Source: Planctomycetaceae bacterium (lineage in GTDB: Bacteria; Planctomycetota; Planctomycetia; Planctomycetales; Planctomycetaceae). Taken from it: 32,119 bases of DNA. Of this stretch, positions 6,802-25,447 are shown one piece after another (positions within the stretch are counted from its first letter, which is position 1; every line of letters begins with the position of its first letter). The notes beneath the pieces were generated by a model. It was not told the DNA's origin and did not search any database. It saw only the letters and a list, made by a program, of their open reading frames with translations. The stretch is taken from NCBI GenBank assembly GCA_020426325.1, contig JAGQQG010000069.1, forward strand, positions 1-32,119. Reading direction: 5' to 3'. The translations under genes were made by a program, and so were the position numbers.

Positions 6802-6811
6802 ACCTTGTCAC

Positions 6812-6870
6812 ATGCTTCCCCGATTCATCGCTGTGACTTCGACAACCGGTCAGCAAATTCGGGGAAGCAT
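6812..6870. terminator. 12-bp inverted repeat spanning the hypE 3' end
   Basis: The arms 6812-6823 and 6859-6870 are perfectly complementary over 12 bp with a 35-base loop. The right arm lies inside hypE, where it encodes the Met-Leu-Pro-Arg just before the last two residues. Transcripts from either side could fold here, so it may act as a bidirectional terminator for the hydrogenase operon and purN. Confidence 0.5.
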
Positions 6871-7926
6871 TGCGCCCGAAGGTTCATCTAGGGGTTGTTC
6901 GGTTCCGAGCGAACGTTGGATTGTCACTGGTGCCAAACCGCGTTCCCGGACTTCACCGATGACGGCTGCCTCACGTGATTGGGGCGAGTTTCGCAATGCC
7001 TGGACGACGGCTTCTCCGACACCTTGCTTGACTGCAATCAGCATCGTTCCTTCACAGGCGATCTGGAGCGGATCGAGTCCCAGCAACTCGGCTGAACCGC
7101 GCGTGTCAGGGGTCGTGGGAACTGCTGTCTCACGAACGGTCAGCGTGTGTCCGCACGCCTGACTCCACTCGTGGAGGATAGCTGTCACACCTCCGCGCGT
7201 CGCATCCCGGATCGCCCGGACGACGTTGCGGTCGTCGGACATCAATCCCGTGATGCGAAGCTGATTCACCGGATCAAACAGACACGCACAGTCGGTTTCC
7301 GGGGGGGGAATCAATCCGAGTTGTTCTCTGGCTGCCAGGATGGCAATGCCATGCCTGCCGACCGGCCCGGAGACGATGAGTTCATCTCCCGGTTGGATGG
7401 TCTCCGGTCCCAGGGGCGGAGGCGGGAGCACGCGACCGATCCCGCTCGTCGTGATGAACAGACCATCAGCCGCTCCTGCAGGTACCACCTTCGTGTCGCC
7501 CGCGACAACCTGAACTCCTGCTTCCCGGGCCGCTTGGGCAGCACTCTCAAGAACGCTCTCCAGGACGGGAAGCGGCAACCCCTCTTCGATAATCAATGAC
7601 AAACTGATCCACATGGGGAGTGCACCAGCAACTGCCAGATCATTCATCGTGCCAATGATCGCCAGGCGACCGATATCTCCGCCAGGAAAGAAGAGTGGCG
7701 AGACGACGAAGCTGTCCGTCGTGAAGGCCAGTTCACCCGAGAACTCAGGCAGGATGGCCGCGTCCGGGGGAGCCTTCACTTCGCCATCTTGAGCGAATCG
7801 CGGGAGAATGTTCTCTTCGATCAACCGGCGCATCAGCCGGCCTCCCTCGCCATGGGCCAGCGACACGCGGTCCGGCTGTGGGCCGAGCGAGACGGGACAT
7901 CCAAGTTGCCAGGCAGGCTGTTGCAT
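6850..7926 (-). CDS. hypE: Hydrogenase maturation protein HypE
   Basis: HypE dehydrates a C-terminal thiocarboxamide made by HypF to give the thiocyanate that supplies CN ligands to the Fe atom of [NiFe] hydrogenase. The protein has 358 residues. It shows the AIR-synthase-type ATP-binding fold with GGDIGRLAIIGTMNDLAVAGA (82-102), and VSGPVGRHGIAIL and DATRGGV further on. It ends in Pro-Arg-Ile-Cys; the final Cys358 is the carbamoyl/cyanide carrier of the family, so the gene is complete. I start at the ATG at 7926, ten bases after the hypD stop; the longer open frame to 8043 overlaps hypD and does not resemble HypE. It is the last gene of the hydrogenase operon. Confidence 0.95.
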   Translation of the reverse strand: MQQPAWQLGCPVSLGPQPDRVSLAHGEGGRLMRRLIEENILPRFAQDGEVKAPPDAAILPEFSGELAFTTDSFVVSPLFFPGGDIGRLAIIGTMNDLAVAGALPMWISLSLIIEEGLPLPVLESVLESAAQAAREAGVQVVAGDTKVVPAGAADGLFITTSGIGRVLPPPPLGPETIQPGDELIVSGPVGRHGIAILAAREQLGLIPPPETDCACLFDPVNQLRITGLMSDDRNVVRAIRDATRGGVTAILHEWSQACGHTLTVRETAVPTTPDTRGSAELLGLDPLQIACEGTMLIAVKQGVGEAVVQALRNSPQSREAAVIGEVRERGLAPVTIQRSLGTEQPLDEPSGAMLPRIC

Positions 7927-7936
7927 TGAGTCAGTT

Positions 7937-9091
7937 CTAAACCGTTCGCTGATATTTGAAGTAAGCCGCACATGCCCCTTCAGCGGAGACCATGGGAGCA
8001 CCAAGTGGCGAGTCGGGCGAGCAACTGGTCCCGAAAGCATCACACTCGAATGGCTTGATCAGTCCTGTGAGCACCTCGCCGCTCCGACACTCATCACTCG
8101 CACAGACACCGGAGGGACAACTTCCCCACACGTCGAATGCGTTGAACGTCGGACATTCGGCTTCTGTGCCCTTCGGTTGCTGGAGTGAGTGAAAGCGATG
8201 TGTTGCGTCGAACTGCGAGAACTCGTCCCGCAGGCGATATCCCCCCTGAGGAATGACCCCCATGCCGCGCCACGTGGTATCTGCGATCTCATAGACTTTG
8301 TGGACAATCTCCTGGGCGGATGCATTTCCTCCCTGTTGGACGCTGCGGGCATACCGGTTCGTCACTGTGGATCGACCGGTCTCCAGTTGAGTCACGCAGT
8401 CGAGGATGCCGTCCAGCAGATCGAGAGGTTCAAACCCGGTCACGACCACCGGCGTCTTGTATCGCTCGACGAAGTTCTCATATTCATCGAAGCCCGTCAC
8501 GGTGCACACATGTCCTGCAGCGAGGAACCCTTCGACCCGGCATTCGGGAGTCTGCATCAGGGCATCCATTGCCGGCAGAACTCGGACGTGAGAGACCAGC
8601 AGGCTGAAGTTCTCCAAACCCAGCCCCGCTGCCTGCAGAACAGCGAGGGCGGTCGTCGGTGCAGTTGTCTCAAAGCCAACCGCAAAAAAGACGATGTGTT
8701 GATCCGGGTTCGACTTTGCCAGTTCGACAGCATCCAATGGCGAATAGACGATCTTGACCGTTCCCCCCTGACTGCGAGCATCCAGCAGGCTCCGACTCGA
8801 ACCCGGAACCCGAAGCATGTCTCCAAAGCTGGCCACGCTGACATTTGGCTCCAATGCCAGCTGTTGAGCGAAGTCGATCGCCTCAGCGGGCGTCACACAA
8901 ACCGGGCAACCAGGACCATGAATCAACTCGACGATGTCTTCCAACTCGACTGCGATGCCATGACGCAACAGAGAATGAGTCTGCCCGCCACAAACCTCCA
9001 TCAGCACTCTCTGCTGACTCACGGTCCGCCGGATCTCATCGACCAGTCGGCGTGCAAGGATCGGATCGCGAAATTCATCCAGATGTTTCAC
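7937..9091 (-). CDS. hypD: Hydrogenase maturation protein HypD
   Basis: HypD is the Fe-S scaffold that, with HypC, assembles Fe(CN)2CO for the hydrogenase active site. The 384-residue protein has the usual motifs: VCGGQTHS (Cys34), GPGCPVCVTP (Cys62, Cys65), GFETTAPTTALAV, and a C-terminal Cys-rich region ending SAEGACAAYFKY, which should hold the [4Fe-4S] cluster. That region reads ECRSGEVL where some homologues have CRCGEVL; this looks like family variation, because enough other cysteines remain. The start is a GTG that overlaps the hypC stop (GTGA), implying coupled translation. Confidence 0.95.
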   Translation of the reverse strand: MKHLDEFRDPILARRLVDEIRRTVSQQRVLMEVCGGQTHSLLRHGIAVELEDIVELIHGPGCPVCVTPAEAIDFAQQLALEPNVSVASFGDMLRVPGSSRSLLDARSQGGTVKIVYSPLDAVELAKSNPDQHIVFFAVGFETTAPTTALAVLQAAGLGLENFSLLVSHVRVLPAMDALMQTPECRVEGFLAAGHVCTVTGFDEYENFVERYKTPVVVTGFEPLDLLDGILDCVTQLETGRSTVTNRYARSVQQGGNASAQEIVHKVYEIADTTWRGMGVIPQGGYRLRDEFSQFDATHRFHSLQQPKGTEAECPTFNAFDVWGSCPSGVCASDECRSGEVLTGLIKPFECDAFGTSCSPDSPLGAPMVSAEGACAAYFKYQRTV

Positions 9092-9342
9092 GACGACAGC
9101 TCCTGTGACTCGTCGAGTTCTCCCAGACGAGCCAGGTCTTCGAGCGTGCGTCGGGCCTGTGCTTCATCCAGCCGACTGATCGCCACTCCGGCGTGCACGA
9201 TGACGTAATCCCCCTCCTGGGCATCTGCCACGCAGGCCATGTGACATGTCCGTCGAACCCCGTCAAACTCCACCTCAGCCTGAGCAAATGTGGGATCACG
9301 ATCGATCCAACGGACCACGCGTCCCGGAACAGCAAGGCACAT
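9088..9342 (-). CDS. hypC: Hydrogenase assembly chaperone HypC
   Basis: HypC (84 residues) carries the Fe(CN)2CO group from HypD to the hydrogenase large-subunit precursor. The N-terminus is the diagnostic MCLAVPG, with Cys2 as the essential iron ligand after Met removal, followed by an OB-like beta-barrel (AEVEFDGVRRTCHM, GDYVIVHAG) and a C-terminal helix. The start is fixed by a strong AAGGAGG ribosome-binding site eight bases upstream and by the family N-terminus; the open frame continues to 9480 inside hypF but is irrelevant. It starts one base after the hypF stop and overlaps hypD by four. Confidence 0.96.
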   Translation of the reverse strand: MCLAVPGRVVRWIDRDPTFAQAEVEFDGVRRTCHMACVADAQEGDYVIVHAGVAISRLDEAQARRTLEDLARLGELDESQELSS

Positions 9343-9343
9343 G

Positions 9344-11680
9344 TCAAATTCCTCCTTCGATTCTGCCCCTAACGCTGGTACTGTTTGCCCCCATGTGTGC
9401 GATCCCAATCGCGAGTTGCCCTGCAGCCAGACCACCGTCGTTGGGGGGAATTCGTCGGTGCGTTCCGACCTCAACGCCACATCCCTTTAACTTTTTAACC
9501 ACTAACTCGGTTAACAGACGATTCTGAAACACTCCGCCGCTCAGGACAACCGGGAGGGCAATTCTTAGGCAAACTTCTGCGATTGCAGACGCAAGTCCTC
9601 GATGAAACTTGGCAGCCATCGTCTCTGGTGCGGCCCCGTGTTGACGGTCTGCAATCAATTGGCGAATAGCTGGTCGCCAGTCGAGCTGCAGGGGAGACGT
9701 ACCCAAAAGTTCGAATAGATACTCACCTGTTTCCGATGGATCGGCGACTGCTTCCAAAAGCATCGCGGGGTGTCCCTCATAGGCAGCATCGGTCAGTCCG
9801 AGAATCAGGGCAGCCACGCCATCGAACAGACGGCCGGCACTGCTGGTGACGGATGACAGTCGCTCGCTCTCTGCGAGTTGGATCACCGCAGACACCGTTG
9901 TGTCGCTGATCCCGATCGTCTCAAGCACGCAAGATGCTCGTTCCTCACTAGCTGCTTCCAGCAGTAGAGAAGCCGCTGTTCTCCAGGGTTGTCGGATGGC
10001 GGCCTCACCACCGGGCAACGAGAACGAACGCAGATGTGCGACCCGCTCGAAGCCTTCCAACGACGTCCGCAGAAACTCGCCGCCCCAGATGTATCCGTCA
10101 GTCCCGTAACCTGTCCCGTCGAAGGCGACGCCGAGCACCTCACGGTCCAACCAGTTGTTCTCGACCATGCCGCTGACGATGTGTGCATGGTGATGCTGAA
10201 CTGCGAGGGTGTCGCATTCGAGTGCTTGTGCCCAGCGTGTTGTGAAGTAGTCTGGATGCAGGTCATGAACAACGAGGTCGGGGCGAGTGTCGTAGAGTTC
10301 CTGAATCTGCTCTACATGTTGGATGTATCGCTGACGCATCGACAGCGAATCCAGATCGCCGATGTGCGGACCGAGAATTGCCTGTGCCCCGTTGCAGAGT
10401 GCGACTGCAACTTTCTGATGCCCTCCCACGGCCAGTACGGTCGGAGCAGCTGAACTGGTGCCGCTGAGGCTCTGAGTGACAGTCCCTATGATCGGCTGAA
10501 GTGGCAGGGGGGCAAAGCCACGCGCGCTACGTAGTGTGACGAACTGGCCTGCCATGAAACGCACGACGCTGTCATCGACAGGACGGGCAATCTCCCGGTC
10601 GTGATGTAACCACAAATCCGCGACATCGAGAAGTTCCTGCTCAGCCTGCTCCGGGTCGATGGCCAGCGGAGCACCATCGACGTTTCCGCTCGTGACGACC
10701 AGCGGTCGCTGAACACAATCGAGGAGCAACCAGTGCAGGGCAGTTGTGGGAAGAAACAGACCGATTTCACGCAGTCCCGGATGGATCGCATCGCAAAGCA
10801 TCGAGTTCTGCTTTGCCCTCACGAGTACGATGGGACGTTCGTGACCACTCAGCATCGCACGATCAGCTTCACTCAGTTCAGCCAGCGACTCTGCCTCAGA
10901 GAGTGATGACACCATCACGGCCAGCGGCTTCGCAGGACGTCTTTTGCGTTCTCGTAATCGTCCAACTGCGGCGGAGTTCGTGGCATCAACAATGAGTTGA
11001 TAGCCTCCCAGTCCACGCAGGGCGAGGATTTTGGCGCTGTCGATTGCGGTTCTGACGGCTTCCCAAATCGACTGCTCTTGTCCTGTCGACCCATTGAGCC
11101 ACAGTCTCGGCCCACACGCCGCACAGGCATTGGTCTGTGCATGACAGCGGCGATCGGTCAAGTCGTTGTATTCTTCTTCGCACTGTGAACAGAGGACGAA
11201 CGGTTCCATCGTCGTCCGGCTGCGATCATAGGGCATCTCGCGGATGATCGAGTAGCGTGGACCGCAGTCAACGCAGCTGAGGAAGGCATAGCCCGCGCGT
11301 CGATCGGAATGCATGGCCACTTCGTGCAGGCAGGATTCGCACGTGGCACGATCGGGCGGAACGGGGGTTCCAAGTCGCCCGCTGGTGGAAGACGCGGCGA
11401 TCTTGAAACCGTTGGCCCCGAGCGGCTCACAAGCGTCCCATCGACAAGTCTTGAGGTGAGCTTGTGCCGGCAGGTTCAGCGGCAACTCGCGACAGAATCG
11501 GTTGATGGCGGCTTCGTCGCCTTCCAGGTGGATTTGAACTCCTGAGACAGCATTGCGGACAACCCCGGCCAGCCCCAGTTGCCGTGCGAATCGTGCGACG
11601 GCAGGACGAAATCCGACACCCTGTACATCTCCCTGCACGGTCAATCGACCAGCGACAAGGGTGGACATGCGGGCGTTCAT
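9344..11680 (-). CDS. hypF: Carbamoyltransferase HypF
   Basis: HypF converts carbamoyl phosphate and ATP to carbamoyl-AMP and transfers the carbamoyl group to the HypE C-terminal Cys, the first step in making the CN ligands. The 778-residue length is typical. The domains run in order: acylphosphatase-like (about 10-95, VQGVGFRP at 19-26), a double zinc finger, a YrdC-like domain (about 200-390), and a Kae1-like carbamoyltransferase domain (about 400-765) with VQHHHAH and VLSGGVFQN. The zinc cysteines C114, C117, C136, C139, C164, C167, C186 and C189 follow the canonical CX2CX18CX2CX24CX2CX18CX2C spacing exactly. The ATG overlaps the hypB stop as ATGA; Met5 is an alternative start. Confidence 0.96.
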   Translation of the reverse strand: MNARMSTLVAGRLTVQGDVQGVGFRPAVARFARQLGLAGVVRNAVSGVQIHLEGDEAAINRFCRELPLNLPAQAHLKTCRWDACEPLGANGFKIAASSTSGRLGTPVPPDRATCESCLHEVAMHSDRRAGYAFLSCVDCGPRYSIIREMPYDRSRTTMEPFVLCSQCEEEYNDLTDRRCHAQTNACAACGPRLWLNGSTGQEQSIWEAVRTAIDSAKILALRGLGGYQLIVDATNSAAVGRLRERKRRPAKPLAVMVSSLSEAESLAELSEADRAMLSGHERPIVLVRAKQNSMLCDAIHPGLREIGLFLPTTALHWLLLDCVQRPLVVTSGNVDGAPLAIDPEQAEQELLDVADLWLHHDREIARPVDDSVVRFMAGQFVTLRSARGFAPLPLQPIIGTVTQSLSGTSSAAPTVLAVGGHQKVAVALCNGAQAILGPHIGDLDSLSMRQRYIQHVEQIQELYDTRPDLVVHDLHPDYFTTRWAQALECDTLAVQHHHAHIVSGMVENNWLDREVLGVAFDGTGYGTDGYIWGGEFLRTSLEGFERVAHLRSFSLPGGEAAIRQPWRTAASLLLEAASEERASCVLETIGISDTTVSAVIQLAESERLSSVTSSAGRLFDGVAALILGLTDAAYEGHPAMLLEAVADPSETGEYLFELLGTSPLQLDWRPAIRQLIADRQHGAAPETMAAKFHRGLASAIAEVCLRIALPVVLSGGVFQNRLLTELVVKKLKGCGVEVGTHRRIPPNDGGLAAGQLAIGIAHMGANSTSVRGRIEGGI

Positions 11681-12372
11681 GTGGTCACCATCGATTCACC
11701 GATGACTGTCCTCGCGAGCAGTTCGTGCCGCTGACCTTCGAGGAACTGACACCACTGTGCGATCCCGTCTTTGGACAGAGAGCAGATGGGCAGGACTGTC
11801 AGATCGGGCTGGATTTGATGAGCATCGTCAATCGCTGCATCAACCGAAAAGGGAACGTGAGGCAACAGATCGGTCTTACTGATCACCAGGGCCTGACTTG
11901 TGCGGAACATCTTGGGGTATTTGCCCGGTTTATCATCCCCTTCGGTTACGCTCAGCAGGACGACACGCACGTGTTCTGCCAGGTCATGCGAGGCGGGGCA
12001 GACCAGATTGCCGACGTTCTCGATGAACAGAAAGTCGATATCGGCTGTACTCAGCTTCTCCAGTCCCTGCTTGACGAGCGGGATTTCGAGGTGACAGGCC
12101 CCGCCCGTCGTGAGTTGTTCGACCGGGCAATGCGGAGCCAGTCGCTGTGCATCGCGATCGGTTTCGAGGTCTCCGACGAGCACCGCCATCCGATGTCGTC
12201 CGGCCCAGTGCTCAGCGGTCGCCTGGAGCAGGCTTGTTTTGCCAGCTCCTGGAGAGGAAAGGACATTGATGACAAGTGTGCCCTGACGGCCAAGGTGCTG
12301 ACGCAACTCTTCTGCCTGACGACGCAGTTCGGCTTTCACATCACGTTGAACAGTAATTGTCTTGGTGGTCAT
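11677..12372 (-). CDS. hypB: Hydrogenase nickel-insertion GTPase HypB
   Basis: HypB is a SIMIBI-class GTPase that works with HypA to insert Ni into the hydrogenase large subunit. The 231-residue protein has the P-loop SSPGAGKT (39-46), GDLETDRDAQRL (67-78), the metal-site Cys93-His94 (GGACHLE), ENVGNLVCP (118-126) and the guanine-specificity motif SKTD (165-168). The N-terminal CxxCGC nickel site of Escherichia coli HypB and the poly-His stretch of some homologues are both absent, so nickel storage is unlikely. I start at the ATG at 12372, one base after the hypA stop; the longer frame reaches back into hypA. The stop overlaps hypF by four bases. Confidence 0.95.
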   Translation of the reverse strand: MTTKTITVQRDVKAELRRQAEELRQHLGRQGTLVINVLSSPGAGKTSLLQATAEHWAGRHRMAVLVGDLETDRDAQRLAPHCPVEQLTTGGACHLEIPLVKQGLEKLSTADIDFLFIENVGNLVCPASHDLAEHVRVVLLSVTEGDDKPGKYPKMFRTSQALVISKTDLLPHVPFSVDAAIDDAHQIQPDLTVLPICSLSKDGIAQWCQFLEGQRHELLARTVIGESMVTT

Positions 12373-12373
12373 C

Positions 12374-12772
12374 TCACGCCCTCGCTTCGCAACACGGTTT
12401 TTCTTCCTGACTCGCACGGCAGCGGTCAGCCGTTTCGATCTCGACTTCCAGCAGACGGAACTCGTCACCACCGGTGATCTGCACCTGCTGTGAATCGCAC
12501 TGCGGACAGACAAATCGGAAGTCTTCCAAGTTGAATTCGGTCTGACAGTCCCTGCATCTCGCAGACAGGGGAATCTCATCGATCACCAGACGGGCATCTG
12601 CACAGAACGTCGTTACCACGAGTTGTTCAAATGCCAACTCGATCAGCACACGGTCGACACCGGAGAGCGGACCCATCTCGACATGAATCGCAGAGACACT
12701 CTCTCCCCCGTGCTCAATGAGCAGGTCTTCCACCTGACGCAACAGCGAGCGGACAAGCGACATCTCATGCAT
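12374..12772 (-). CDS. hypA: Hydrogenase nickel chaperone HypA
   Basis: HypA (132 residues) is the Ni-binding partner of HypB. It begins [11 protein letters not shown], where His2 is the essential Ni ligand, and carries a zinc site of two CxxC pairs (Cys73/Cys76 and Cys89/Cys92). The ATG at 12772 is chosen because the family begins with MHE; it overlaps the end of the protease gene by eight bases. The C-terminal tail beyond residue 115 is a little longer than usual, with two extra cysteines near the end (EKPCCEARA), whose role is unknown. Confidence 0.94.
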   Translation of the reverse strand: MHEMSLVRSLLRQVEDLLIEHGGESVSAIHVEMGPLSGVDRVLIELAFEQLVVTTFCADARLVIDEIPLSARCRDCQTEFNLEDFRFVCPQCDSQQVQITGGDEFRLLEVEIETADRCRASQEEKPCCEARA

Positions 12773-13262
12773 GATCGACTGCCCCCAGAGGAGTTTCCGA
12801 CGCGGCTGAGTTGAGTTCGCATGCAATCATTTCAACCAGGTTTCGCAGCCCTGCGTTGACCTCGGGTGAAATGTCTGCGAAAGCGTCAAACCGCTTTCCG
12901 GCCATTCCATAGATAATGACGCACTTCGGCAGTTTGTCCAACTTTTCTGCGAGTTCGAACACTGCGGGCAGGCCGAACGTGTGACTGTCGGATGAACGCA
13001 TGTGTTCGACCTCGGTCGTCGGCCACTCCCAGCGATGAACAATTGGAGAAAGGGGCTCATTGTCAACTCCCTCACACGCATCACACACGATGACGCGATC
13101 GAATCCATCAATCCAGTCAAACAGCTGACTGGGCGTTGAGGCCTGCCTGATAACGATCTCGGGAGAGACTTCGTCCCTCAGCCGATCGATGGCGAGCCAC
13201 CCTATCCGATCATCGCCATGAGGGCTGCCGATGCCGACGATCAGTGTGCGTAGGCTCGTCAT
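12765..13262 (-). CDS. [NiFe] hydrogenase maturation protease
   Basis: This HycI/HybD-type endopeptidase (165 residues) removes the C-terminal extension of the large subunit after Ni insertion. Visible family features are the N-terminal strand [12 protein letters not shown] (7-18), an acidic pair at 17-18 where HybD has its first Ni ligand, Asp61 in IVCDAC as the second, and His94 in SDSHTFGLP as the third. The start at 13262 overlaps the large-subunit stop as ATGA, so the protease is coupled to its substrate. The frame is open a little further upstream, inside the large-subunit gene. The substrate is almost certainly the adjacent alpha subunit, which carries a 12-residue C-terminal tail. Confidence 0.92.
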
Positions 13263-14560
13263 ACCGGGTTCCCACGGTCGATCGTCAATCGAAGGAAATG
13301 TGTTGAACAACTGATGCATGGGTCATAACAACGGATCAGTTTTTCACAATCGAGAGCTGTCTGCTCATCGTCGTCCACAATGATCCGGGGCAGCCAGTCA
13401 CGGAGGTCATCCTCAATTTGCTGCTGATTTTGAGACGTCGGAGGCACGATTTTGGCGAACACGATCTTGCCGTCACGATCCACTTCATAGCGATGATAGA
13501 TAAGTCCGCGCGGCGCTTCCGTCGCCGCACAGCCGAAGCCTGCATGAGGGGTGTAGGTGATGCGGGAAGGCTTGACCTGCTGATAGTCCCGAATGATCTC
13601 GATCGCTTCCTCATAGGCGTGCACGAGTTCAATGCCGCGTGCAACGATCGCCTGGAACGGGTTCCAGCAGGGCCAGTCAATGTTGACTTCATCCACCAGC
13701 CTTTTGGCACGTGGCGAAAGCTGATCGAGGTTGAGATTCACTCGCGCAAGAGGACCGACGTGATAGCTGGCGTCGTTGGCCTGTTGCACGGAGTGGAGCG
13801 CGGTCGAGTGTTCGACATGTCTTTCCTCGAAATGTTGTTCATACTCGCGAACGTCGATCGAGAGACCGTTGGTCGATGCAACGCGCCCCTCGTTCATGGC
13901 GTACTCGTCGGGATGCTTGAGAGCCACCATATCGTAAGGTCGATTGAAGTCGGGGAACTCAAGCGTCGCGACCCAGCGGGTTGCCTCTTCAGCTGCCTCC
14001 AGTCCCCACTCGAAATCGGGAAGCAGCCTGGTCAACTCCTCAGTTTTCGGGGCGCGGTAGAAACCGCCGACACAGACATTGATCGGATGAATGGCTCGTC
14101 CGCCGAGTACGTCCAGCAGTTCGTTCCCGTGCTTTTTGAGCCGTAGTCCGCGATTGACCTCGTTGGGGAAATGGGCCGCCATATCGGGCACGCCGTGAAA
14201 TCCGAGGAAGTCCGGCGCGTGGAGCAAATGCATGTGCAGGGCATGACTCTCGATCCATTCTGCGCAGTATAACAGCCGTCGCAGACGCCGGATCTCCGGG
14301 GTGATCTTCACGCCCAACGCCGCTTCCAACGCGTGAGTCGAACTCATCTGATAGGCGACCGGGCAGATGCCGCAAATTCTCGCGGTGATGTCCGGCACCT
14401 CTTCGAGCTTGCGTCCGCGAAGGAACGCCTCAAAAAATCGCGGCGGCTCATAGATGCTGAGCTTCACGTCCTGCACCTGGTCGCCATCCAGTTGCACATA
14501 CAATCCCCCTTCCCCTTCGACGCGGGTCAGGGCTTCGACTTTGATCGTGCGATTCGACAC
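13259..14560 (-). CDS. hydA: [NiFe] hydrogenase large (alpha) subunit, group 3b type
   Basis: This is the catalytic subunit holding the NiFe(CN)2CO site, 433 residues, similar to the alpha subunit of cytosolic bidirectional NADP-linked hydrogenases (sulfhydrogenase type). The L1 motif RICGICP gives Cys63 and Cys66. The L2 motif DPCISCSTH gives Cys415 and Cys418, with cleavage expected after His421, leaving a 12-residue C-terminal peptide for the adjacent protease. All four Ni/Fe ligand cysteines are therefore present. It has no signal peptide, consistent with a soluble enzyme. The start is GTG with an AAGGA about ten bases upstream, 23 bases after the small-subunit stop. The beta-gamma-delta-alpha order points to group 3b rather than 3d, which normally comes with HoxEFU-like subunits; a tree is needed for formal classification. 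Confidence 0.94.
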
Positions 14561-14583
14561 AGCAACAGATTCCTTGGGAGGTG

Positions 14584-17371: not shown

Positions 17372-17445
17372 CCGATGCCCGATGCTGGTGACGGGATTGG
17401 TGGAATGTTCAGACGCAACACGACGATCTTTTCAAAGTTCAAACA

Positions 17446-17928: not shown

Positions 17929-18445
17929 AATTATCCGCTTTCACGAATTAAGGAGAGGGAGTCATGGCGGGAGGATCGTAATTCATCAACTTGTTTCACC
18001 CAAGTCTTCACGACGAGTCAATTCATACAATTTGCAAAACTGATGCCACGACATTTCACTCGGACAGCAGAGGCCGTTACCCCAATGCGATTTCAATCAT
18101 GGAAACTCCTGCTCCATCGAAAGCGTGGCATAGTGCGCGACATCATCACGTTGCACAGGTTCACACCCCGCCATACCGCGCACTTTGGCGCGCTGCGCGC
18201 GCGAATGTGCTCATGTGCACACATGGAGTGTGAGAGTTAAGCGAGATCACAAAGGGTTACAAACAATGCAAGCATGTTGTGATCAACGACACGACGAGAC
18301 CATTATCACCTTATTCATGCCACTCACGTTTCGGTGATTCGATTCAGCGCGCATTTCATCAAAAGGATGGTCAACTCCTTTGCGGTCGGGCATCGTTGAT
18401 GCTATGAACTCGCCGGCAATCATTCATCTCACAGGGAAGGTTGTA
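17929..18445. promoter_or_regulatory. Divergent control region between hydrogenase and nifJ operons
   Basis: This 517-bp stretch has no credible gene. It separates two divergent redox operons and must contain both promoters. The part nearest nifJ is dense in symmetric sequence: GCGCGC-T-GCGCGC at 18188-18200, CATGTG-CA-CACATG at 18212-18225, and GATCACAA...TTGTGATC at 18245-18284. A candidate nifJ promoter with TTGTGA (18277-18282) and CATTAT (18301-18306), 18 bases apart, overlaps the last repeat. An AGGGAAGG ribosome-binding site precedes the nifJ ATG by five bases. Confidence 0.6.
18245..18284. promoter_or_regulatory. GATCACAA...TTGTGATC inverted repeat, candidate operator
   Basis: Perfect 8-bp arms at 18245-18252 and 18277-18284 are separated by 24 bases. 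The arms contain TCACA and TGTGA, the half-sites of Crp/Fnr-type regulators, but facing outward and too far apart for a single canonical site. The right arm coincides with a possible -35 box, which would fit repression or activation of nifJ. Confidence 0.45.
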
Positions 18446-21400
18446 ATGGCAGAGACACGCATCATCGTTGACGGAAATGAAGCGGCAACGCGCGTCGCTT
18501 ATCAGTGCAGCGAAGTGGCTGCGATTTATCCGATCACTCCGGCCTCTCCCATGGGCGAGATGGTCGACGCCTGGTCCAACGCTGGTCGCGAGAATCTGTT
18601 CGGAACGGTTCCACGCGTCATCGAGATGCAGAGTGAAGGCGGGGCAGCCGGGGCTGTCCATGGATCGCTTCAGGCAGGAGCACTCACAACGACGTTCACT
18701 GCGTCGCAAGGTCTGCTGCTGATGATCCCTAACATGTTCAAGATTGCCGGCGAACTCACGCCGACGGTCTTTCATGTGGCGGCCCGCTCAATCGCCACAC
18801 ATGCCCTCTCGATTTTCGGTGACCACAGCGATGTGATGTCTGCCCGGATGACCGGCTGGGCCATGCTGGCTGCATCGTCTGTGCAGGAAGCTCAGGACTT
18901 CTCTTTGATTTCGCACGCAGCAACTCTTCGGGCACGAGTCCCGTTTCTCCATTTCTTCGACGGCTTTCGTACCTCGCACGAACTGAATTCCATCGTTGTG
19001 CTTCCCGATGAGGTCATCGCCGCCATGATCGATCGCGATCTTGTGAAGGCTCATCGCGAGCGTGCTCTGAATCCCGATCGACCAGTTCTGCGGGGGACAG
19101 CACAGAACCCAGACGTCTTCTTTCAAGCCAGGGAAGCCGTCAATTCCTACTACAACGTCTGTCCGAACATTGTTCAGGAGACGATGAATCGCTTCGCCGA
19201 ACTGACGGGGCGGCATTACGGTCTGTTTGAATATACCGGTGCTGAGGATGCGACACGCGTCGTCATTCTCATGGGGTCGGGCGTCGGGGCTGTGGAAGAG
19301 GTTGTCCAGCATCTCACCAGTTCTGGCGAAAAAGTCGGCGTGCTCAAGATCCGGCTGTATCGACCGTTTGATGCTGCAGAGTTTCTCAAGGCCCTACCGG
19401 TCACGACGGAGACGATCGCAGTTCTGGACCGCACGAAAGAGCCGGGAGCCGTTGGCGAGCCCCTGTTTGTCGATGTCATGTCAGCGGTCGCCGAACACTG
19501 GAACGATCATGCTCCGGGGCAGCGTATTCCACGGATTATCGGCGGGCGTTACGGGCTTTCGTCGAAAGAGTTCACACCTGCGATGGTGGTGTCGATCTTT
19601 GATGAACTCAAGAATGATCAACCGAAGCGACGGTTCACGATTGGTATCAACGATGACGTCACTCACCTCAGTCTGAACTACAACCCGGAAAGCTGGAAAG
19701 AGTCACCTACCGTCCAGCGAGCTGTCTTCTATGGACTGGGAAGCGACGGCACCGTCGGGGCAAACAAGAACTCGGTCAAGATCATCGGCGAGGGGACGCC
19801 GATGTTTGCCCAGGGGTACTTTGTTTACGACTCAAAGAAAGCAGGTTCCGTCACGGTCTCGCACCTTCGGTTCAGTCAAGAACCGATCAAGTCATCCTAT
19901 CTGATCGATCAGGCCGACTTCGTCGCATGCCATCAGTTTCAGTTTCTGGAATCTCAGGATGTGCTCACACTCGCTGCCCCCGGGGCGACCTTCCTGCTCA
20001 ACAGTCCTTATGGCCCGGATGAAGTCTGGGATCATCTGCCCTCTGAGGTGCAGAAGACCATCATCGAGAAGCAGCTGCGTCTGTTCGTGATCGACGGATA
20101 CGCAGTGGCCCGTGAAGCCGGGATGGGTGGGCGCATCAACACGGTTATGCAGACGTGTTTCTTCGCCCTGGCGAAGGTACTTCCCATTGACGAAGCCATT
20201 GAGGCCATCAAGCAGGCAATTCGCAAGACGTATGGGAAGCGGGGCGAGGCCGTCGTTCGCCGCAACGAGGAAGCCGTCGACAGCTCACTGGCCGGCCTGC
20301 ATGAAGTCACCATTCCCTCCGAGGTCACCTCGACCTTGCATCGCCGTTCGCTCGTCCCTGATCAGGCTCCGGACTTCGTCAAGCGAGTCACTGGACTTCT
20401 CCTGGCCGGACTGGGAGAGAAGCTGCCTGTCAGTGCGATGCCGGTCGACGGCACGTTCCCCACCGGAACCGCACAATTCGAGAAACGACGAATCGCAGCG
20501 TCGATCCCCATCTGGGATCCGGACATCTGCATTCAATGCGGACTCTGTGCCCTCGTCTGTCCTCACGCTGCGATCCGGTCAAAGGCCTATCCGACAGAGT
20601 CGCTCAATGGGATTCCCGACGGTTTCAAATCGCTCAACTGGAGCGGAAAGGACCTGACGGACTACAGCATGACGATTCAGGTCGCTCCCGACGATTGCAC
20701 GGGGTGCGGCGTGTGTGTCGATGTCTGCCCGGCCCGCAGTAAAGAGGTGGCCAAGCACAAGGCCATCAATATGGAACCGACACTCGAACACGCCGATCAG
20801 GAGCGAGCCTCGTTCGAGTATTTCATGTCACTCCCGGAGATCGACCGGACCAGTATCTCCCATGATCAGGTGAAGAGTTCCCAACTCCTGCAGCCGCTCT
20901 TTGAATACTCAGGAGCCTGTGCGGGTTGTGGAGAGACTCCGTATCTCAAACTGATCAGCCAGCTGGTCGGCGACCGCATGCTTGTCGCCAACGCGACCGG
21001 GTGTTCCTCGATTTACGGGGGGAATCTGCCCACGACTCCGTGGTCGACGGATGCTGAAGGACGAGGTCCTGCCTGGTCGAATTCTCTCTTCGAGGACAAC
21101 GCGGAATTCGGCCTGGGGATGCGATTGGCGATCGATGAACAGGAACGATTTGCAATCGCTCAACTCAAGAAGCATGCCGCGCAGATCGGTGAAACTCTCG
21201 TTCGTGAAACCATCGAGGCGAAACAGAAGACGGAAGCTGACATCAACCAGCAAAGGGATCGTGTCCGACACATTCGAGAGCGCGTACGAGAGATCGACAC
21301 GGCCGATGCCCGTCTGTTGGAAAGCACACTCGATGCACTTGTCCGACGCAGCGTCTGGATTGTCGGCGGCGATGGCTGGGCCTACGACATCGGCTTCGGC

Positions 21401-22030
21401 GGTCTCGACCATGTCCTCGCGTCAGGAGAAGACGTCAACATCCTGGTGCTCGATACTCAGGTCTACTCAAACACGGGAGGGCAGGCATCCAAGGCGACAC
21501 CTCTCGCGGCAGTGGCGAAGTTTGCCGCAGGAGGCAAGCCGATTCGTCGCAAGGATCTGGGCATGCTGGCTGTCGACTATGGGAGCGTCTATGTCGCACA
21601 GATCGCTGTCGGATCACAACCACTGCAGACGCTTCGCGCGTTTCAGGAAGCCGAGTCCTATCCGGGAACGTCACTGGTGATTGCCTACTCCCCCTGCATC
21701 GCGCATGGAATCGACATGTCACAGACGATGACCCACCAGAAGGACGTGACCGGCAGCGGCTTCTGGCCCTTGTTCCGGTACGACCCCCGCAACGCGAAGG
21801 AAGGCGAACGTCCGTTCCGTCTGGACAGTCGACGCCCCAAGCAGACGTTCCGGGATTTTGCCATGAAAGAAGCCCGGTTCGCGACTCTCCTCCGGACGAA
21901 TCTGGATCACGCAGAGAAACTGTTCGATCTGGCTCAGCGGGAAATCGACGACCGATGGCATTACTACGAACAGATGGCCGGCGTCGAGCGAGAGTTCGAG
22001 GTTGTTCAGGTTGAGGAGGTGGTCCAATGA
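18446..22030 (+). CDS. nifJ: Pyruvate:ferredoxin (flavodoxin) oxidoreductase
   Basis: NifJ oxidatively decarboxylates pyruvate to acetyl-CoA and CO2, reducing ferredoxin or flavodoxin. The 1,194-residue single-chain enzyme is full length. The N-terminal domain has AIYPITPASPMGE (pyruvate site). The ferredoxin domain has two [4Fe-4S] motifs: Cys695, 698, 701, 705 and Cys751, 754, 757, 761. The C-terminal thiamine-diphosphate domain has GGDGWAYDIGFGG and NTGGQASKATP, with proximal-cluster cysteines Cys825, Cys828, Cys853 and Cys1084 all present. I start at the ATG at 18446 because AGGGAAGG lies just upstream and the family begins there; the frame is open back to 18380. It leads an operon with the DHOD-like gene (ATGA overlap) and nfnAB. 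The reaction is normally oxygen-sensitive, so expression under low oxygen is likely. Confidence 0.96.
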   Translation: MAETRIIVDGNEAATRVAYQCSEVAAIYPITPASPMGEMVDAWSNAGRENLFGTVPRVIEMQSEGGAAGAVHGSLQAGALTTTFTASQGLLLMIPNMFKIAGELTPTVFHVAARSIATHALSIFGDHSDVMSARMTGWAMLAASSVQEAQDFSLISHAATLRARVPFLHFFDGFRTSHELNSIVVLPDEVIAAMIDRDLVKAHRERALNPDRPVLRGTAQNPDVFFQAREAVNSYYNVCPNIVQETMNRFAELTGRHYGLFEYTGAEDATRVVILMGSGVGAVEEVVQHLTSSGEKVGVLKIRLYRPFDAAEFLKALPVTTETIAVLDRTKEPGAVGEPLFVDVMSAVAEHWNDHAPGQRIPRIIGGRYGLSSKEFTPAMVVSIFDELKNDQPKRRFTIGINDDVTHLSLNYNPESWKESPTVQRAVFYGLGSDGTVGANKNSVKIIGEGTPMFAQGYFVYDSKKAGSVTVSHLRFSQEPIKSSYLIDQADFVACHQFQFLESQDVLTLAAPGATFLLNSPYGPDEVWDHLPSEVQKTIIEKQLRLFVIDGYAVAREAGMGGRINTVMQTCFFALAKVLPIDEAIEAIKQAIRKTYGKRGEAVVRRNEEAVDSSLAGLHEVTIPSEVTSTLHRRSLVPDQAPDFVKRVTGLLLAGLGEKLPVSAMPVDGTFPTGTAQFEKRRIAASIPIWDPDICIQCGLCALVCPHAAIRSKAYPTESLNGIPDGFKSLNWSGKDLTDYSMTIQVAPDDCTGCGVCVDVCPARSKEVAKHKAINMEPTLEHADQERASFEYFMSLPEIDRTSISHDQVKSSQLLQPLFEYSGACAGCGETPYLKLISQLVGDRMLVANATGCSSIYGGNLPTTPWSTDAEGRGPAWSNSLFEDNAEFGLGMRLAIDEQERFAIAQLKKHAAQIGETLVRETIEAKQKTEADINQQRDRVRHIRERVREIDTADARLLESTLDALVRRSVWIVGGDGWAYDIGFGGLDHVLASGEDVNILVLDTQVYSNTGGQASKATPLAAVAKFAAGGKPIRRKDLGMLAVDYGSVYVAQIAVGSQPLQTLRAFQEAESYPGTSLVIAYSPCIAHGIDMSQTMTHQKDVTGSGFWPLFRYDPRNAKEGERPFRLDSRRPKQTFRDFAMKEARFATLLRTNLDHAEKLFDLAQREIDDRWHYYEQMAGVEREFEVVQVEEVVQ

Positions 22031-23034
22031 GCGTTGATCTGTCAAGTACCTACTTGGGGATGCGACTGTCCTCACCCATCGTTGCGGCTGCCTGTCCTCT
22101 CACCGGCAACATTGATGTCCTCAAACGATTCGAGGCTGCCGGAGCCGGTGCTGCCGTCCTGCCTTCGCTGTTCGAAGAGCAGATCGAGTTCGAGGAGTGT
22201 ATGTTCGGCGGCCTGATGGACTATGGGGCGAACTCGTTCGGTGAGGCGACCACCTACTTCCCCGAGGTTGATTCGTACAATACGGGACCGGACGAGTACC
22301 TGGAGACGATCGAGAAAGCACGTGATGCCGTCTCGATCCCCGTGATCGGCAGCCTGAACGGTGTGAGCCCCGGCGGGTGGACCAGATACGCAAAGCTGAT
22401 GGAAGACGCCGGGGCATCGGCGCTCGAACTCAACATGTACCAACTGGTCACGGATGCCAACATCACGGCCATTCAGATCGAGGATCAGTACATCGAGCTT
22501 GTGTCGTCGATTCGGTCGACCATTCAGATCCCACTTGCGGTGAAAATCGGTCCCTACTTCAGCTCGCTCCCCAACTTCGCCCGGAGATTGTTCGAGGCTG
22601 GAGCGGATGGGCTGGTGCTGTTCAATCGATTCTTCCAGCCGGACGTCAACATTGAGCGCATGGAGATCCATCCCCAGATGGAGCTGAGTCGACGGACGGA
22701 AATGCGTCTCCCGATGCGATGGATCGCCATTCTCGACCCGCAGGTCAAAGGATCACTCGCAGCCAACTCGGGAATCCAGACGGCTAACGACATCTTCAAG
22801 ATGCTGCTGGTCGGGGCCGATGTCACGATGATGGCGGCAGCCTTTGTCAGGCATGGCCCCGAGCATGTCGCCAAGCTGCTCGCGGACCTTCAAGTTCTCC
22901 TTGCTGAACACGGCTACACATCAGTCGACCAGTTCCGAGGAAGCTTCAACCATCGCAACACGCCCGACCCGTCTGCCTTTGAACGGCTGAACTACATGAA
23001 AGCCTTGACGACTTACGTCGTCGATCTTCCCTGA
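22027..23034 (+). CDS. Dihydroorotate-dehydrogenase-like FMN protein of unknown function
   Basis: The 335-residue protein has the TIM-barrel fold of dihydroorotate dehydrogenases. MSVDLSSTYLGMRLSSPIVAAA is the usual DHOD opening, followed by VIGSLNGVSPGGW (107-119), AVKIGPYFSS with the FMN-binding Lys173, and GADGLVLFNR (192-201). True DHODs have SCPN after the LExN strand, carrying or adjoining the catalytic base; here that place reads LELNMYQLVTD (133-143), with no Cys or Ser base. It is therefore unlikely to oxidise dihydroorotate. The start overlaps nifJ by four bases (ATGA). It sits between nifJ and nfnA; the latter is a relative of PyrK, the electron-transfer partner of class 1B DHODs. 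An electron-transferring or ligand-sensing flavoprotein role in the pyruvate/ferredoxin module is a reasonable guess, not a demonstrated function. Confidence 0.85.
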   Translation: MSVDLSSTYLGMRLSSPIVAAACPLTGNIDVLKRFEAAGAGAAVLPSLFEEQIEFEECMFGGLMDYGANSFGEATTYFPEVDSYNTGPDEYLETIEKARDAVSIPVIGSLNGVSPGGWTRYAKLMEDAGASALELNMYQLVTDANITAIQIEDQYIELVSSIRSTIQIPLAVKIGPYFSSLPNFARRLFEAGADGLVLFNRFFQPDVNIERMEIHPQMELSRRTEMRLPMRWIAILDPQVKGSLAANSGIQTANDIFKMLLVGADVTMMAAAFVRHGPEHVAKLLADLQVLLAEHGYTSVDQFRGSFNHRNTPDPSAFERLNYMKALTTYVVDLP

Positions 23035-23068
23035 GGATCGTTCGACGGACAGCAGTGAGATCCCGACG

Positions 23069-23968
23069 ATGTTTCCAATTCGACAGGCCCGATTTCTCGC
23101 TCCGGAGATCAAGCTCTTCAAAATCGAGGCGCCCCGGATTGCCCGACGAAGACAGGCCGGGCAGTTCGTCATTGTCAGGATTCATGAACACGGCGAACGC
23201 ATTCCCTTGACGATCGCTGATTCCGACGTGGATCAGGGGACGATCACGATCGTTGTCCAGGGCATCGGCAAGACGACCAAGTTACTGAATATGCTCGAAA
23301 CGGGCGACGCCATCCAGGATGTCGTCGGCCCGCTCGGCGAGCCCTCGGAAGTGGATCAGTTCGGAACGGTCGTCGTCATCGGCGGCGGGGTCGGGACAGC
23401 GATCGCGTTTCCCACTGCCGTCGCCATGAAGCAAGCCGGCAACCGTGTCCTCAGTATCATCGGTGCCAAGTCAAAAGAGCTGCTGATTCTTGAAGACGAG
23501 ATGAGAGCTACCAGCGACGAACTGTTCATCATGACCGATGACGGCAGCGCTGGTACTCATGGCTTTGTCACGCAGAAACTGGAAGACCTCATTCAGCAGG
23601 GCGAACAGATCGATCGGGTGCTCGCCATCGGTCCCATTCCCATGATGCAGGCCGTCGCAAATGTGACGCGCCCACATAACATTAAGACGATCGTCAGCCT
23701 GAACCCGATCATGGTCGACGGAACCGGCATGTGCGGCGGCTGCCGCGTCACGGTCGGTAGTCAGACTCGCTTTGCCTGCGTCGACGGTCCGGAGTTCGAT
23801 GCACACGATGTCGACTTCAAGATCCTCGCGCAGAGAAACACGCTTTATCACAGCAGTGAACAGACGGCGTTCGAGTCGTTTGTCTCCGATCCCTCAAAGG
23901 ATATCGATCAGATTCGTCACTGCCGACTCCAGCAACGTCATCCTGAAGTGGGGCCGCAAGCCAGTTAA
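23069..23968 (+). CDS. nfnA: NfnA/SudB-type ferredoxin-NADP(+) reductase small subunit
   Basis: This 299-residue subunit has an FAD-binding barrel (about 5-95), an NAD(P)-binding domain with VVVIGGGVGTA (101-111) and AIGPIPMM, and a C-terminal [2Fe-2S] site. The cluster ligands fit NfnA: Asp217, Cys222, Cys225 and Cys237 (VDGTGMCGGC...FACVDG). In NfnAB the small subunit handles NAD(H) and the large subunit NADP(H), and the complex couples NADH plus reduced ferredoxin to NADP+ reduction by flavin-based bifurcation. PyrK and sulfide dehydrogenase SudB are close relatives and cannot be fully excluded. The gene follows the DHOD-like gene by 34 bp. The ribosome-binding site is weak. The C-terminal 30 residues (QQRHPEVGPQAS) are variable. 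Confidence 0.88.
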   Translation: MFPIRQARFLAPEIKLFKIEAPRIARRRQAGQFVIVRIHEHGERIPLTIADSDVDQGTITIVVQGIGKTTKLLNMLETGDAIQDVVGPLGEPSEVDQFGTVVVIGGGVGTAIAFPTAVAMKQAGNRVLSIIGAKSKELLILEDEMRATSDELFIMTDDGSAGTHGFVTQKLEDLIQQGEQIDRVLAIGPIPMMQAVANVTRPHNIKTIVSLNPIMVDGTGMCGGCRVTVGSQTRFACVDGPEFDAHDVDFKILAQRNTLYHSSEQTAFESFVSDPSKDIDQIRHCRLQQRHPEVGPQAS

Positions 23969-23974
23969 TCGCCC

Positions 23975-25405
23975 ATGACCGAACGACTGCCTCCCAAGGA
24001 ACGAACCAAAATCCCGCGACAGGCGATGCCTGAGCAGGACCCGCACGAACGCGCTCACAACTTTGCGGAAGTCAATCGCGGACTGGAAATCCTCGTTGCG
24101 GAAAAGGAGGCGCAGCGGTGCCTCGCGTGCAACGACCCCAAGTGTGTCCACGGCTGTCCGGTCGGAGTCAAAATACGAGAGTTTGTCGATCTGGTGATCG
24201 AGGGTGAGTACCTGAAGGCGGCAGCGAAAATCCGCGAGGACAACGTGCTCCCGGCAGTCACCGGACGTGTCTGCCCGCAGGAGAATCAATGCGAAGGGTC
24301 CTGCATCCTGGGAAAACGGTTCAGCCCGCTCGCGATCGGGCATCTGGAACGGTTCGTCGCTGACTACGAACAGGCAACAGGCCAGGTCGGTTTGCCGGAG
24401 CGTGCCCCGGCGACCGGCAAGAAAGTCGCCATCGTCGGCAGTGGTCCTGCGGGCCTCAGTTGTGCGGGCGACCTCGTCCTGAAGGGGCACGATGTCACAG
24501 TCTTCGAAGCTTTGCACGAGATCGGAGGGGTGCTGGTGTATGGCATCCCGGAGTTTCGTCTCCCCAAGGAGATTGTCCGTAACGAGGTCGACAACCTCCG
24601 AAAGATGGGCGTCGATTTTCAGACCAACGTCGTCATCGGCAAAACCGTGACCATTGACGAACTGTTCGACGAGGAGGGGTATGACGCGGTCTTCATCGCC
24701 ACCGGAGCAGGGCTGCCCAAGTTCATGAACCTGCCCGGCGAACACCTGGGCGGCGTGTATTCGGCAAACGAGTTCCTCACACGCGTCAACCTTATGAAGG
24801 CATACGATCCAGATCATTACGACTCGCCCATTTATTACTGTCGTGATCGAAATGTCGCTGTGATTGGTGGCGGCAATACCGCGATGGATTCGATCCGATC
24901 AGCCCTTCGGCTTGGTGCGAAGAACGCCTACATCATCTACCGCCGAGGTGAAGAGGAGATGCCCGCCCGGCGCGAGGAGGTGCACCATGCTCGCGATGAA
25001 GGAGTGCAGTTCCTCAACCTTCACAACCCGGTCGAGTTCCTCGGCAACGACGATGGATACCTGACAGCAGTGAAGCTGATCAAAATGGAACTTGGCCCCG
25101 AAGATGAATCCGGCAGGCGTTCACCCATTCCGATCGAAAGCTCTGAGTTCGATCTTCCCTTGGACGTAGCTATCATCGCGATCGGGACCGGTGCCAACCC
25201 GCTCGTGCAGTCGACGACCCCAGACGTCAAGACGAACAAATGGGGCTACATCGTCGCAGACGATCAGACTCTGCGGACAACTAAGCGCGGCGTCTTCGCA
25301 GGGGGTGACATCGTCAGCGGCTCTGCGACGGTCATTCTCGCGATGGGAGCCGGCCGTACCGCAGCCCGTTCGATTCACGAGTACCTCACCACCGGCGAAT
25401 GGTGA
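23975..25405 (+). CDS. nfnB: NfnB/SudA/GltD-like NADPH-binding large subunit
   Basis: The 476-residue large subunit resembles glutamate synthase small chain and NfnB. An N-terminal helical domain binds two [4Fe-4S] clusters, with Cys49, Cys52, Cys57, Cys61 and Cys100, Cys106, Cys110. Then come an FAD motif GSGPAGLSCAG (155-165), an NADPH-binding GGGNTAMDS, YRRGEEEMPARREE, and a C-terminal FAD motif GVFAGGDIVSG. No glutaminase or large glutamate synthase subunit is nearby, and NfnA lies six bases upstream, so NfnB fits better than GltD. Together with NfnA it should exchange electrons among ferredoxin, NADH and NADPH, the last step linking NifJ to the hydrogenase's NAD(P)H pool. Pyrimidine reductase PreT is a related alternative given the DHOD-like neighbour. 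Confidence 0.88.
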   Translation: MTERLPPKERTKIPRQAMPEQDPHERAHNFAEVNRGLEILVAEKEAQRCLACNDPKCVHGCPVGVKIREFVDLVIEGEYLKAAAKIREDNVLPAVTGRVCPQENQCEGSCILGKRFSPLAIGHLERFVADYEQATGQVGLPERAPATGKKVAIVGSGPAGLSCAGDLVLKGHDVTVFEALHEIGGVLVYGIPEFRLPKEIVRNEVDNLRKMGVDFQTNVVIGKTVTIDELFDEEGYDAVFIATGAGLPKFMNLPGEHLGGVYSANEFLTRVNLMKAYDPDHYDSPIYYCRDRNVAVIGGGNTAMDSIRSALRLGAKNAYIIYRRGEEEMPARREEVHHARDEGVQFLNLHNPVEFLGNDDGYLTAVKLIKMELGPEDESGRRSPIPIESSEFDLPLDVAIIAIGTGANPLVQSTTPDVKTNKWGYIVADDQTLRTTKRGVFAGGDIVSGSATVILAMGAGRTAARSIHEYLTTGEW

Positions 25406-25412
25406 CGGCCAC

Positions 25413-25436: not shown

Positions 25437-25447
25437 CCCTCTCAGCG

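Follow-up and report, generated by a model that had tools for sequence, protein, structure and literature searches.

In Pyrococcus, electrons pass from pyruvate to ferredoxin, from ferredoxin through Nfn to NADPH, and from NADPH to H2, a route of three enzymes. The production of H2 from pyruvate was reportedly reconstituted by Ma, Zhou and Adams in 1994. Here we describe a locus with enzymes of this kind in a Planctomycetaceae bacterium (assembly GCA_020426325.1, contig JAGQQG010000069.1; "the window" is the whole stretch analysed, 32,119 nucleotides). A block of 16 genes at 6850-25405 encodes a [NiFe] hydrogenase with its maturation proteins, a NifJ-type pyruvate:ferredoxin oxidoreductase (PFOR), a protein resembling dihydroorotate dehydrogenase (DHOD), and both subunits of Nfn. 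On balance, we read the block as a self-contained redox cassette for facultative anaerobiosis, which would carry a net flow from pyruvate to H2 when oxygen is short. The occurrence of the same block in other surroundings in two relatives, together with pairings in other phyla, suggests a movable anaerobic kit of known parts.

The bidirectional hydrogenase of Synechocystis, HoxEFUYH, belongs to group 3d. Excerpts of PMC11368403 report that nifJ, a DHOD-annotated gene listed with it, and the hox hydrogenase are all upregulated in dark microoxic cells, and sulfide dehydrogenase is described in an excerpt of PMC3035292 as acting in vivo as a ferredoxin-NADP oxidoreductase. A HoxI-like gene in a group 3b cluster is noted in part of PMC12319191, and group 3b enzymes in Planctomycetota are already in print, as passages of PMC13335318 and PMC8862662 attest.

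Gene content and layout of the block

Profile scans of the open reading frames (ORFs) of the window recovered 12 genes on the minus strand (17928 to 6850) and four divergent genes on the plus strand (18446 to 25405), with starts 517 bp apart (Table 1). The first operon runs from a cyclic nucleotide-binding (cNMP) domain protein through HydB, HydG, HydD, HydA and a protease to HypA, HypB, HypF, HypC, HypD and HypE, and the second through NifJ, the DHOD-like protein, NfnA and NfnB. Gaps within either operon are at most 74 bp, and many genes overlap. The original prediction had described this arrangement, a hydrogenase operon with its own protease and all six Hyp factors lying back-to-back with a four-gene operon, and its coordinates and gene counts agreed with the profile-supported genes. 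NCBIfam equivalog cut-offs were passed by HypE, HypD, HypF, HypB and HypA, and subfamily or superfamily cut-offs by HypC and the protease. The listed ORFs of hypE, hypC, hypA, and probably hypB carry N-terminal extensions. A NifJ start at the TTG at 18380 is unlikely because the homology in congeners begins at the ATG at 18446. Rfam (gathering threshold) and tRNA scans of the window found nothing.

Table 1. Coordinates of the genes and other features of the block in the window.
Feature	Position	Strand	Basis and remarks
HypE	6850..8043	-	TIGR02124 376.8 bits, cut-off 251.6; matches residues 59-397; true start probably internal
HypD	7937..9091	-	TIGR00075 441.8 bits, cut-off 192.8
HypC	9088..9342	-	TIGR00074 75.2 bits, from residue 47 of longer listed ORF; start 9342
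HypF	9344..11680	-	TIGR00143 691.9 bits, cut-off 466.1
HypB	11677..12579	-	TIGR00073 233.9 bits, match from residue 76; start possibly internal
HypA	12374..12772	-	TIGR00100 92.7 bits, cut-off 88.1; start 12772, listed ORF longer
Hydrogenase maturation protease	12765..13319	-	TIGR00072 68.7 bits, cut-off 47.45
HydA, [NiFe] hydrogenase large subunit, group 3b type	13259..14560	-	Models, solved matches, RICGIC and DPCISCSTH, HydA tree
HydD, hydrogenase small subunit	14584..15372	-	Best solved matches sulfhydrogenase 1 delta 9e15_A, 9nez_A
HydG, FAD/NAD(P)H subunit, 2Fe-2S-type cysteines	15372..16232	-	Sole solved match under 1e-20: 9nez_C gamma
HydB, double [4Fe-4S] subunit	16229..17371	-	Sole solved match up to 1e-5: 9nez_B beta
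cNMP-domain protein, HoxI-like, too short for DNA-binding domain	17446..17928	-	Profile scan, locus comparison; frequent as fifth gene of 3b operons
Divergent promoter region	17929..18445	.	Three-congener alignment, site scans
NifJ, pyruvate:ferredoxin (flavodoxin) oxidoreductase	18446..22030	+	TIGR02176 1773.9 bits, cut-off 911.35; start by homology
DHOD-like protein without class 1 catalytic cysteine	22027..23034	+	PRK07565 431.1 bits, above cut-off
NfnA (small subunit; beta in 5jca naming)	23069..23968	+	5jca_S 341.7 bits; PRK06222 412.6 bits, above cut-off
NfnB (large subunit; alpha in 5jca naming)	23975..25405	+	4ylf_B 515.2 bits, 5jca_L 504.5 bits
Block common to G001 and G002 as DNA homology	6848..25405	.	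Promoter region and short stretch near 9359-9395 excepted; flanks differ

Assignment of the hydrogenase

Group 3b sulfhydrogenase models were the best for HydA, HydD and HydB, yet their scores lay far under the cut-offs (276.5 bits against 880 for HydA). The models separated HydA from related classes, with HydA and ShyA at 276 and 273 bits versus 152 for VhuA and 144 for FrhA. Against solved structures, sulfhydrogenase and cytosolic chains scored 248-253 bits, Mvh-type (3c) chains 178, and the NAD-reducing enzyme 5xf9 135. Sulfhydrogenase 1 chains were the best solved relatives of all four subunits, tied for HydA with the cytosolic NiFe hydrogenase. HydG ranked the models as PRK08345 "cytochrome-c3 hydrogenase subunit gamma" (189.8), AsrB (174.1) and 3b HydG (162), all below cut-off. 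In HydA, RICGIC at residue 61 and DPCISCSTH at 413, which correspond to the NiFe-site cysteine motifs L1 and L2, are followed by a C-terminal extension beyond the last His, as a substrate for the protease. Genes and cysteine motifs are present for all four subunits, including the NAD(P)H/FAD and double [4Fe-4S] subunits. These comparisons support the assignment of the enzyme to [NiFe] group 3b, as originally proposed, with HydBGDA as the predicted heterotetramer. The HydA tree, suggested as a comparison across groups 3a-3d, was run with 3d and group 1 outgroups and had no 3a, 3c, or archaeal sulfhydrogenase I row.

The kinship with sulfhydrogenase 1, and the matches of HydG and HydB to the anaerobic sulfite reductase models AsrB and AsrA, could also be taken to mean that the enzyme is mainly a sulfur or polysulfide reductase, or an NADPH redox valve, with H2 as a side product. 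We regard this as very improbable, as no dedicated sulfur gene was found among 18 window proteins scanned with NCBIfam or 10 with Pfam (a single 20-bit SoxX match fell in the heme protein to the right of the block), and comparable loci in other taxa have enzymes of pyruvate or acetyl-CoA as neighbors.

The predicted electron route

NifJ matched its family model as a full-length single chain above cut-off, with two CxxCxxCxxxC motifs. Both Nfn subunits were nearest to solved Nfn enzymes, in agreement with the identity proposed for them: NfnA was closest to the NfnI of 5jca, with a conserved C-terminal Asp/Cys region, and NfnB to 4ylf and then 5jca. The Fe-S regions of both subunits were conserved in alignments with two solved matches each. 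NfnB scored best with a fusion model (PRK12778, below cut-off) and passed the cut-off of TIGR01316 (581.7 bits versus 471.75).

Family functions thus support the circuit of pyruvate, ferredoxin, NAD(P)H and H2 that had been put forward. From these we infer that NifJ would oxidize pyruvate to acetyl-CoA and reduced ferredoxin, that NfnAB would exchange electrons between NADPH on one side and reduced ferredoxin plus NADH on the other, and that HydBGDA, assembled by its own protease and HypA-F, would pass NADPH electrons to protons and release H2. Net flow would most likely run from pyruvate to H2 under oxygen shortage, although the chain is reversible, so that H2 could also drive it the other way.

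With four matches to the COX1 family, AceE and acetate kinase, the organism's own genome predicts a facultative aerobe by gene content. Because of these genes, the organism would be expected to respire with pyruvate dehydrogenase in oxygen and to use the block once oxygen runs short. The lineage had been characterized as one better known for aerobic heterotrophy, which the COX1 matches and AceE bear out, although group 3b enzymes are not foreign to published Planctomycetota. If the block works as we read it, it would give respiring planctomycetes a way to ferment, or to recycle H2, once oxygen is gone.

The block in congeneric genomes

The block is carried by three of the five genomes of the genus: the organism's own (G000), G001 and G002. 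The searches of G003 (72% complete) and G004 (99% complete) gave no HydA match and no NifJ of full length. The nearest named record for HydA is Planctomycetaceae bacterium HKST-UBA51 (87%), which is identical to the congener G001 over the 17.2 kb compared. Homology with G002, in which hypA was confirmed, covers 6848-25405, with interruptions at the promoter region and at one short stretch, and stops there on both sides. Homology with G001 ends on the right at 25403, and its left edge coincides with the contig end. At all three visible edges, DNA homology ends no more than 2 bp from the outer stop codon, and the flanks differ. The window's left flank was found on other contigs of the congeners (815-6697 in G002, 3169-6689 in G001, and part of 792-6689 in G004), and the right neighbor, CocE, was on another contig in G002. 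Because shared homology ends sharply and the flanks lie elsewhere in congeners, the block has changed surroundings as a unit. The description of the module as portable holds in this sense of different contexts among congeners and absence from the 99% complete G004.

Synteny with G001, G002 and G004 includes the formyltransferase gene to the left of the block, but past this gene each of the three has a sequence unlike the window's, so a clean empty site could not be defined. Synteny between the window and these three congeners thus breaks on the 3' side of the gene (6697-6870). The left block edge alone is straddled by a 12-bp inverted repeat (6812-6823/6859-6870), and no 10-mer is common to 6501-6900 and 25351-25800 in either orientation. 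We considered a known mobile element, such as a transposon or integrative element, and rejected it, as no recombinase, target-site duplication or terminal repeats occur at the edges. A tyrosine recombinase of the phage integrase family lies farther out in the left flank (799-1707); it is probably unrelated to the block because G002 and G004 share this flank in synteny, apart from the block. In the flank covered by profile scans in G002, an IS1182-like transposase follows nfnB (211.7 bits, below the cut-off of 270). To the right of the block in the window, 27397-32019 encodes a PVC-type heme-binding protein of 1540 residues that also carries 3-keto-disaccharide hydrolase, ThuA and HEAT domains.

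Distribution of the hydrogenase and NifJ pairing

We surveyed 294 Planctomycetota genomes with completeness of at least 80, accepting HydA matches with E up to 1e-60 and NifJ matches with E up to 1e-200. HydA was found in 71 genomes (46 at 51% identity or more; the other 25 matches are just 35-42% identical and may not be 3b), NifJ in 107, and both in 40. Co-occurrence exceeded expectation (odds ratio 3.0, Fisher P 1e-4, with phylogeny ignored). The two genes lay within 12 kb in five of the 40 (G000, G028, G037, G079, and G303). Among 40 nearer relatives, own genome included, eight had a strong HydA and a full NifJ, adjacent in five; in the others they were 3.3 Mb apart (G005) or on different contigs (G009, G025). 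NifJ accompanied HydA in four of 80 named loci (one each from the congener, an Acidobacteriaceae, an Acidimicrobiia and a bacterium without assignment), where 9.9 kb was covered upstream of hydA in 53 of the 80 and downstream in 44. Loci counted as unlinked include ones that end early, and NifJ reaches the end of the stretch in L103, L130 and L167.

NfnA (E up to 1e-50) occurred in 81 of the 294 genomes and in none of the 20 other family members within that sample; NfnAB was therefore probably acquired by the window's genus, or else lost widely elsewhere. Conserved synteny in planctomycetes is thus supported in part: the pairing recurs, but it is adjacent in just five of 40 genomes, and NfnAB was seen in the block solely in the window's genus.

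The HydA tree had 126 rows (120 HydA loci, the window and five others, with L095, the G001 copy, and L003, the window's own locus, left out of the 120) and placed the window in a group of 29 planctomycete rows with 99% support in the Shimodaira-Hasegawa-like approximate likelihood ratio test. It is a quick tree, with 46 of 120 inner branches under 80, internal stops treated as X, and the group 1 row on a very long branch. The label of NifJ beside the hydrogenase, borne by 10 rows, needs at least seven changes; this is the full label count, and a group table without the 112 unlabelled rows gives one change. In crude chance tests, three of 22 were adjacent when the window was dropped and G028 and G037 were counted once (P 3e-4), and three of 79 named loci showed the pairing against 0.12 expected (P 2e-4); these estimates assume a 5 Mb genome and ignore phylogeny, and a first adjacency estimate includes the window. 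Adjacency of the PFOR and hydrogenase genes is above the crude chance expectation, and the pairing is recurrent across several phyla and not a general planctomycete trait. It makes the pyruvate-H2 electron route directly testable in culturable relatives.

The genes found with other pairings vary. In G028 and G037, a phosphoenolpyruvate (PEP) synthase separates NifJ from the 3b operon, and a reductase-like protein belongs to the NifJ gene run there and in G303. These proteins match the ferredoxin-NADP reductase superfamily weakly (42-58 bits versus a cut-off of 390), and BenC is equally near in G037. No Nfn match was seen at the G303 and G028/G037 loci, and as a working hypothesis NfnAB and the reductase-like proteins could be interchangeable ferredoxin-NADP links. 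The Acidimicrobiia locus (L167) has PPDK in the corresponding place. L130 has a malic enzyme-phosphotransacetylase-like fusion beside the pairing, and L103 has an intervening protein that resembles acetate-CoA ligase (540.5 bits, cut-off 567) and, close by, a regulator of the CRP/FNR type. The intervening 546-residue ORF of G079 matched no NCBIfam family at 1e-10. Two further loci deserve mention. In L083 (G027; 5204-14883), NifJ-DHOD adjoins a NuoF-like protein and a hydrogenase with a large subunit that groups with HoxH rows, a pairing with another hydrogenase class. A Burkholderia savannae plasmid typed as conjugative (L202, L206) carries ppsA beside a 3b operon with the cNMP gene and hypA, F, C, D and E.

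Alternative interpretations of the pairing

Several observations weigh against the proposed pyruvate-to-H2 cassette. Among the 40 genomes with both genes, HydA and NifJ were on different contigs in 29 and on one contig in 11, six of which had them 0.6-3.9 Mb apart. The nearest sister rows in the HydA tree (L106, G018, and G272) had no NifJ beside the hydrogenase in the stretch compared. The PEP synthase and PPDK neighbors in other taxa suit the reverse direction equally. In the alignment of the divergent region (17929-18445), no 9-mer was common to the three congeners; with no promoter element shown to be conserved in them, co-regulation lacks sequence support.

Other scans bear on the co-expression that we infer for the two operons. 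FNR-, CRP-, and Rex-like site scans of the divergent region gave near-matches only, and sigma-70-like and terminator-like scans were at shuffled level. RpoN-like near-matches (one or two mismatches, chance level uncomputed) occur in four of four divergent regions, those of the window, G001, G002 and G303. The regions with such near-matches are L075, L076, L077 and window 17929-18445. Two of the near-matches are similarly placed before nifJ in G001 and G002, but in the window the strand and the place are different.

Part of this evidence would suit two ordinary operons that came to lie back-to-back by chance and are coupled through cofactor pools only. In 35 of the 40 genomes with both genes, the two are not within 12 kb on the contigs at hand, the promoter region yielded no conserved element, and the nearest sister rows lack the pairing in the stretch compared. 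We nevertheless hold chance adjacency to be decidedly unlikely, given that one block with sharp visible edges occurs in different contexts in three congeners and that the pairing is repeated in several phyla.

The cassette could instead work mainly in reverse, with H2 reducing NADP, Nfn generating low-potential ferredoxin, and NifJ acting as a pyruvate synthase for gluconeogenesis (H2-assisted CO2 fixation or acetate assimilation). The PEP synthase of G028 and G037, the PPDK of the Acidimicrobiia locus and the ppsA of the Burkholderia plasmid would all fit this direction, and the organism's own genome has a PPDK_N-domain protein. A Challenger Deep paper also ties 3b in Planctomycetota to carbon fixation, in the portion available (PMC13335318). 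The window's block has no PEP-forming enzyme, and the acetate-CoA ligase-like and malic enzyme-Pta-like neighbors elsewhere favor fermentation. NifJ-type PFOR is, moreover, usually oxidative. Mainly reverse operation therefore seems unlikely to us, if somewhat less so than chance adjacency, and we keep to flow from pyruvate to H2.

A bolder extension of this reading would have the complete unit move from site to site and from one otherwise aerobic lineage to another. With a swappable ferredoxin-NADP gear (NfnAB here, the reductase-like protein in relatives) and a HoxI-like, nucleotide-sensing subunit to gate the hydrogenase, it would offer respiring cells a one-step switch to H2-evolving fermentation. 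This is speculative, and we would call it rather unlikely.

The cNMP-domain and DHOD-like proteins

The block also draws attention to two conserved proteins. One, the cNMP-domain protein found in group 3b operons, has 160 residues and a single cNMP domain in the window. Counting matches at 30 bits, within 8 kb and on the same strand, we found it in 55 of the 62 named group 3b loci with at least 4.5 kb before hydA, from many phyla, and usually between hydB and hydG. In an alignment of 49 of the 55 (111-259 residues) with the window's protein, the C-terminal region was among the best conserved parts (R140, L141, R145, Q147, and D150 at 90-100%). Pairwise BLASTP with HoxI, an accessory subunit of the soluble hydrogenase (SH) of C. 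necator, gave 13 bits, which is not significant. A 50-row cNMP profile gave 46.7 bits in a one-sequence search of HoxI, a score that a general cNMP relationship could also produce. The protein probably serves the hydrogenase as an accessory or regulatory subunit. None of the solved structures that match it is a chain of the 3b entry 9nez.

The DHOD-like partner of NifJ adjoins it in 28 of the 35 NifJ loci L040-L074 (window included; 1.5 kb looked at). It shows remote similarity only to solved DHODs, and the DHOD motif ELNLSCPNV aligns with ELNMYQLV in this protein. Across 30 aligned relatives, Cys was absent at positions 136-142 in all 30, and E134, N136, K173 and N200 were invariant. The protein thus lacks the catalytic Cys that class 1 dihydroorotate dehydrogenases have in the NxxC loop. 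In the earlier label of DHOD-like flavoprotein, the first part agrees with the PRK07565 match, and flavin binding is putative.

Comparison with known systems

Of described circuits, that of Pyrococcus furiosus (PFOR, the Nfn known as SuDH/FNOR, that is, sulfide dehydrogenase/ferredoxin-NADP oxidoreductase, and the soluble 3b sulfhydrogenase I) has the same kind of NADPH hydrogenase. The Nfn of this organism (5jca) is the best solved match of NfnA and the second best of NfnB. Unlike the Pyrococcus enzymes, the PFOR here is of the single-chain NifJ type, and cNMP-domain and DHOD-like genes are added. The genes here lie in one 18.6 kb block with its own Hyp set; Pyrococcus is compared by enzymes and not by gene placement.

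The nifJ operon of Synechocystis (sll0741, sll0743, and sll0744) likewise combines NifJ with a DHOD-annotated gene in an organism with a bidirectional hydrogenase. It differs in having two separate loci (sll0741 and sll1220-1226), and the excerpted account of it makes no mention of Nfn.

Bacterial 3b operons with a HoxI-like gene share the set of hydB, cNMP, hydG, hydD and hydA, often with protease and hyp genes, in many phyla. The usual order in these loci is hydB, cNMP, hydG, whereas in the family loci that cover both genes, as in the window, the cNMP gene comes before hydB. NifJ is missing from the stretch compared in 76 of the 80 named loci.

In the open-licence PMC literature on planctomycete 3b, NifJ, PFOR and Nfn, the titles and abstract starts among the matches listed describe no such co-located block. 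The families of its parts and the circuit they would form are already known; what is new is their packaging in a compact block that has been relocated, brings a maturation set of its own, and includes an NfnAB that was probably acquired.

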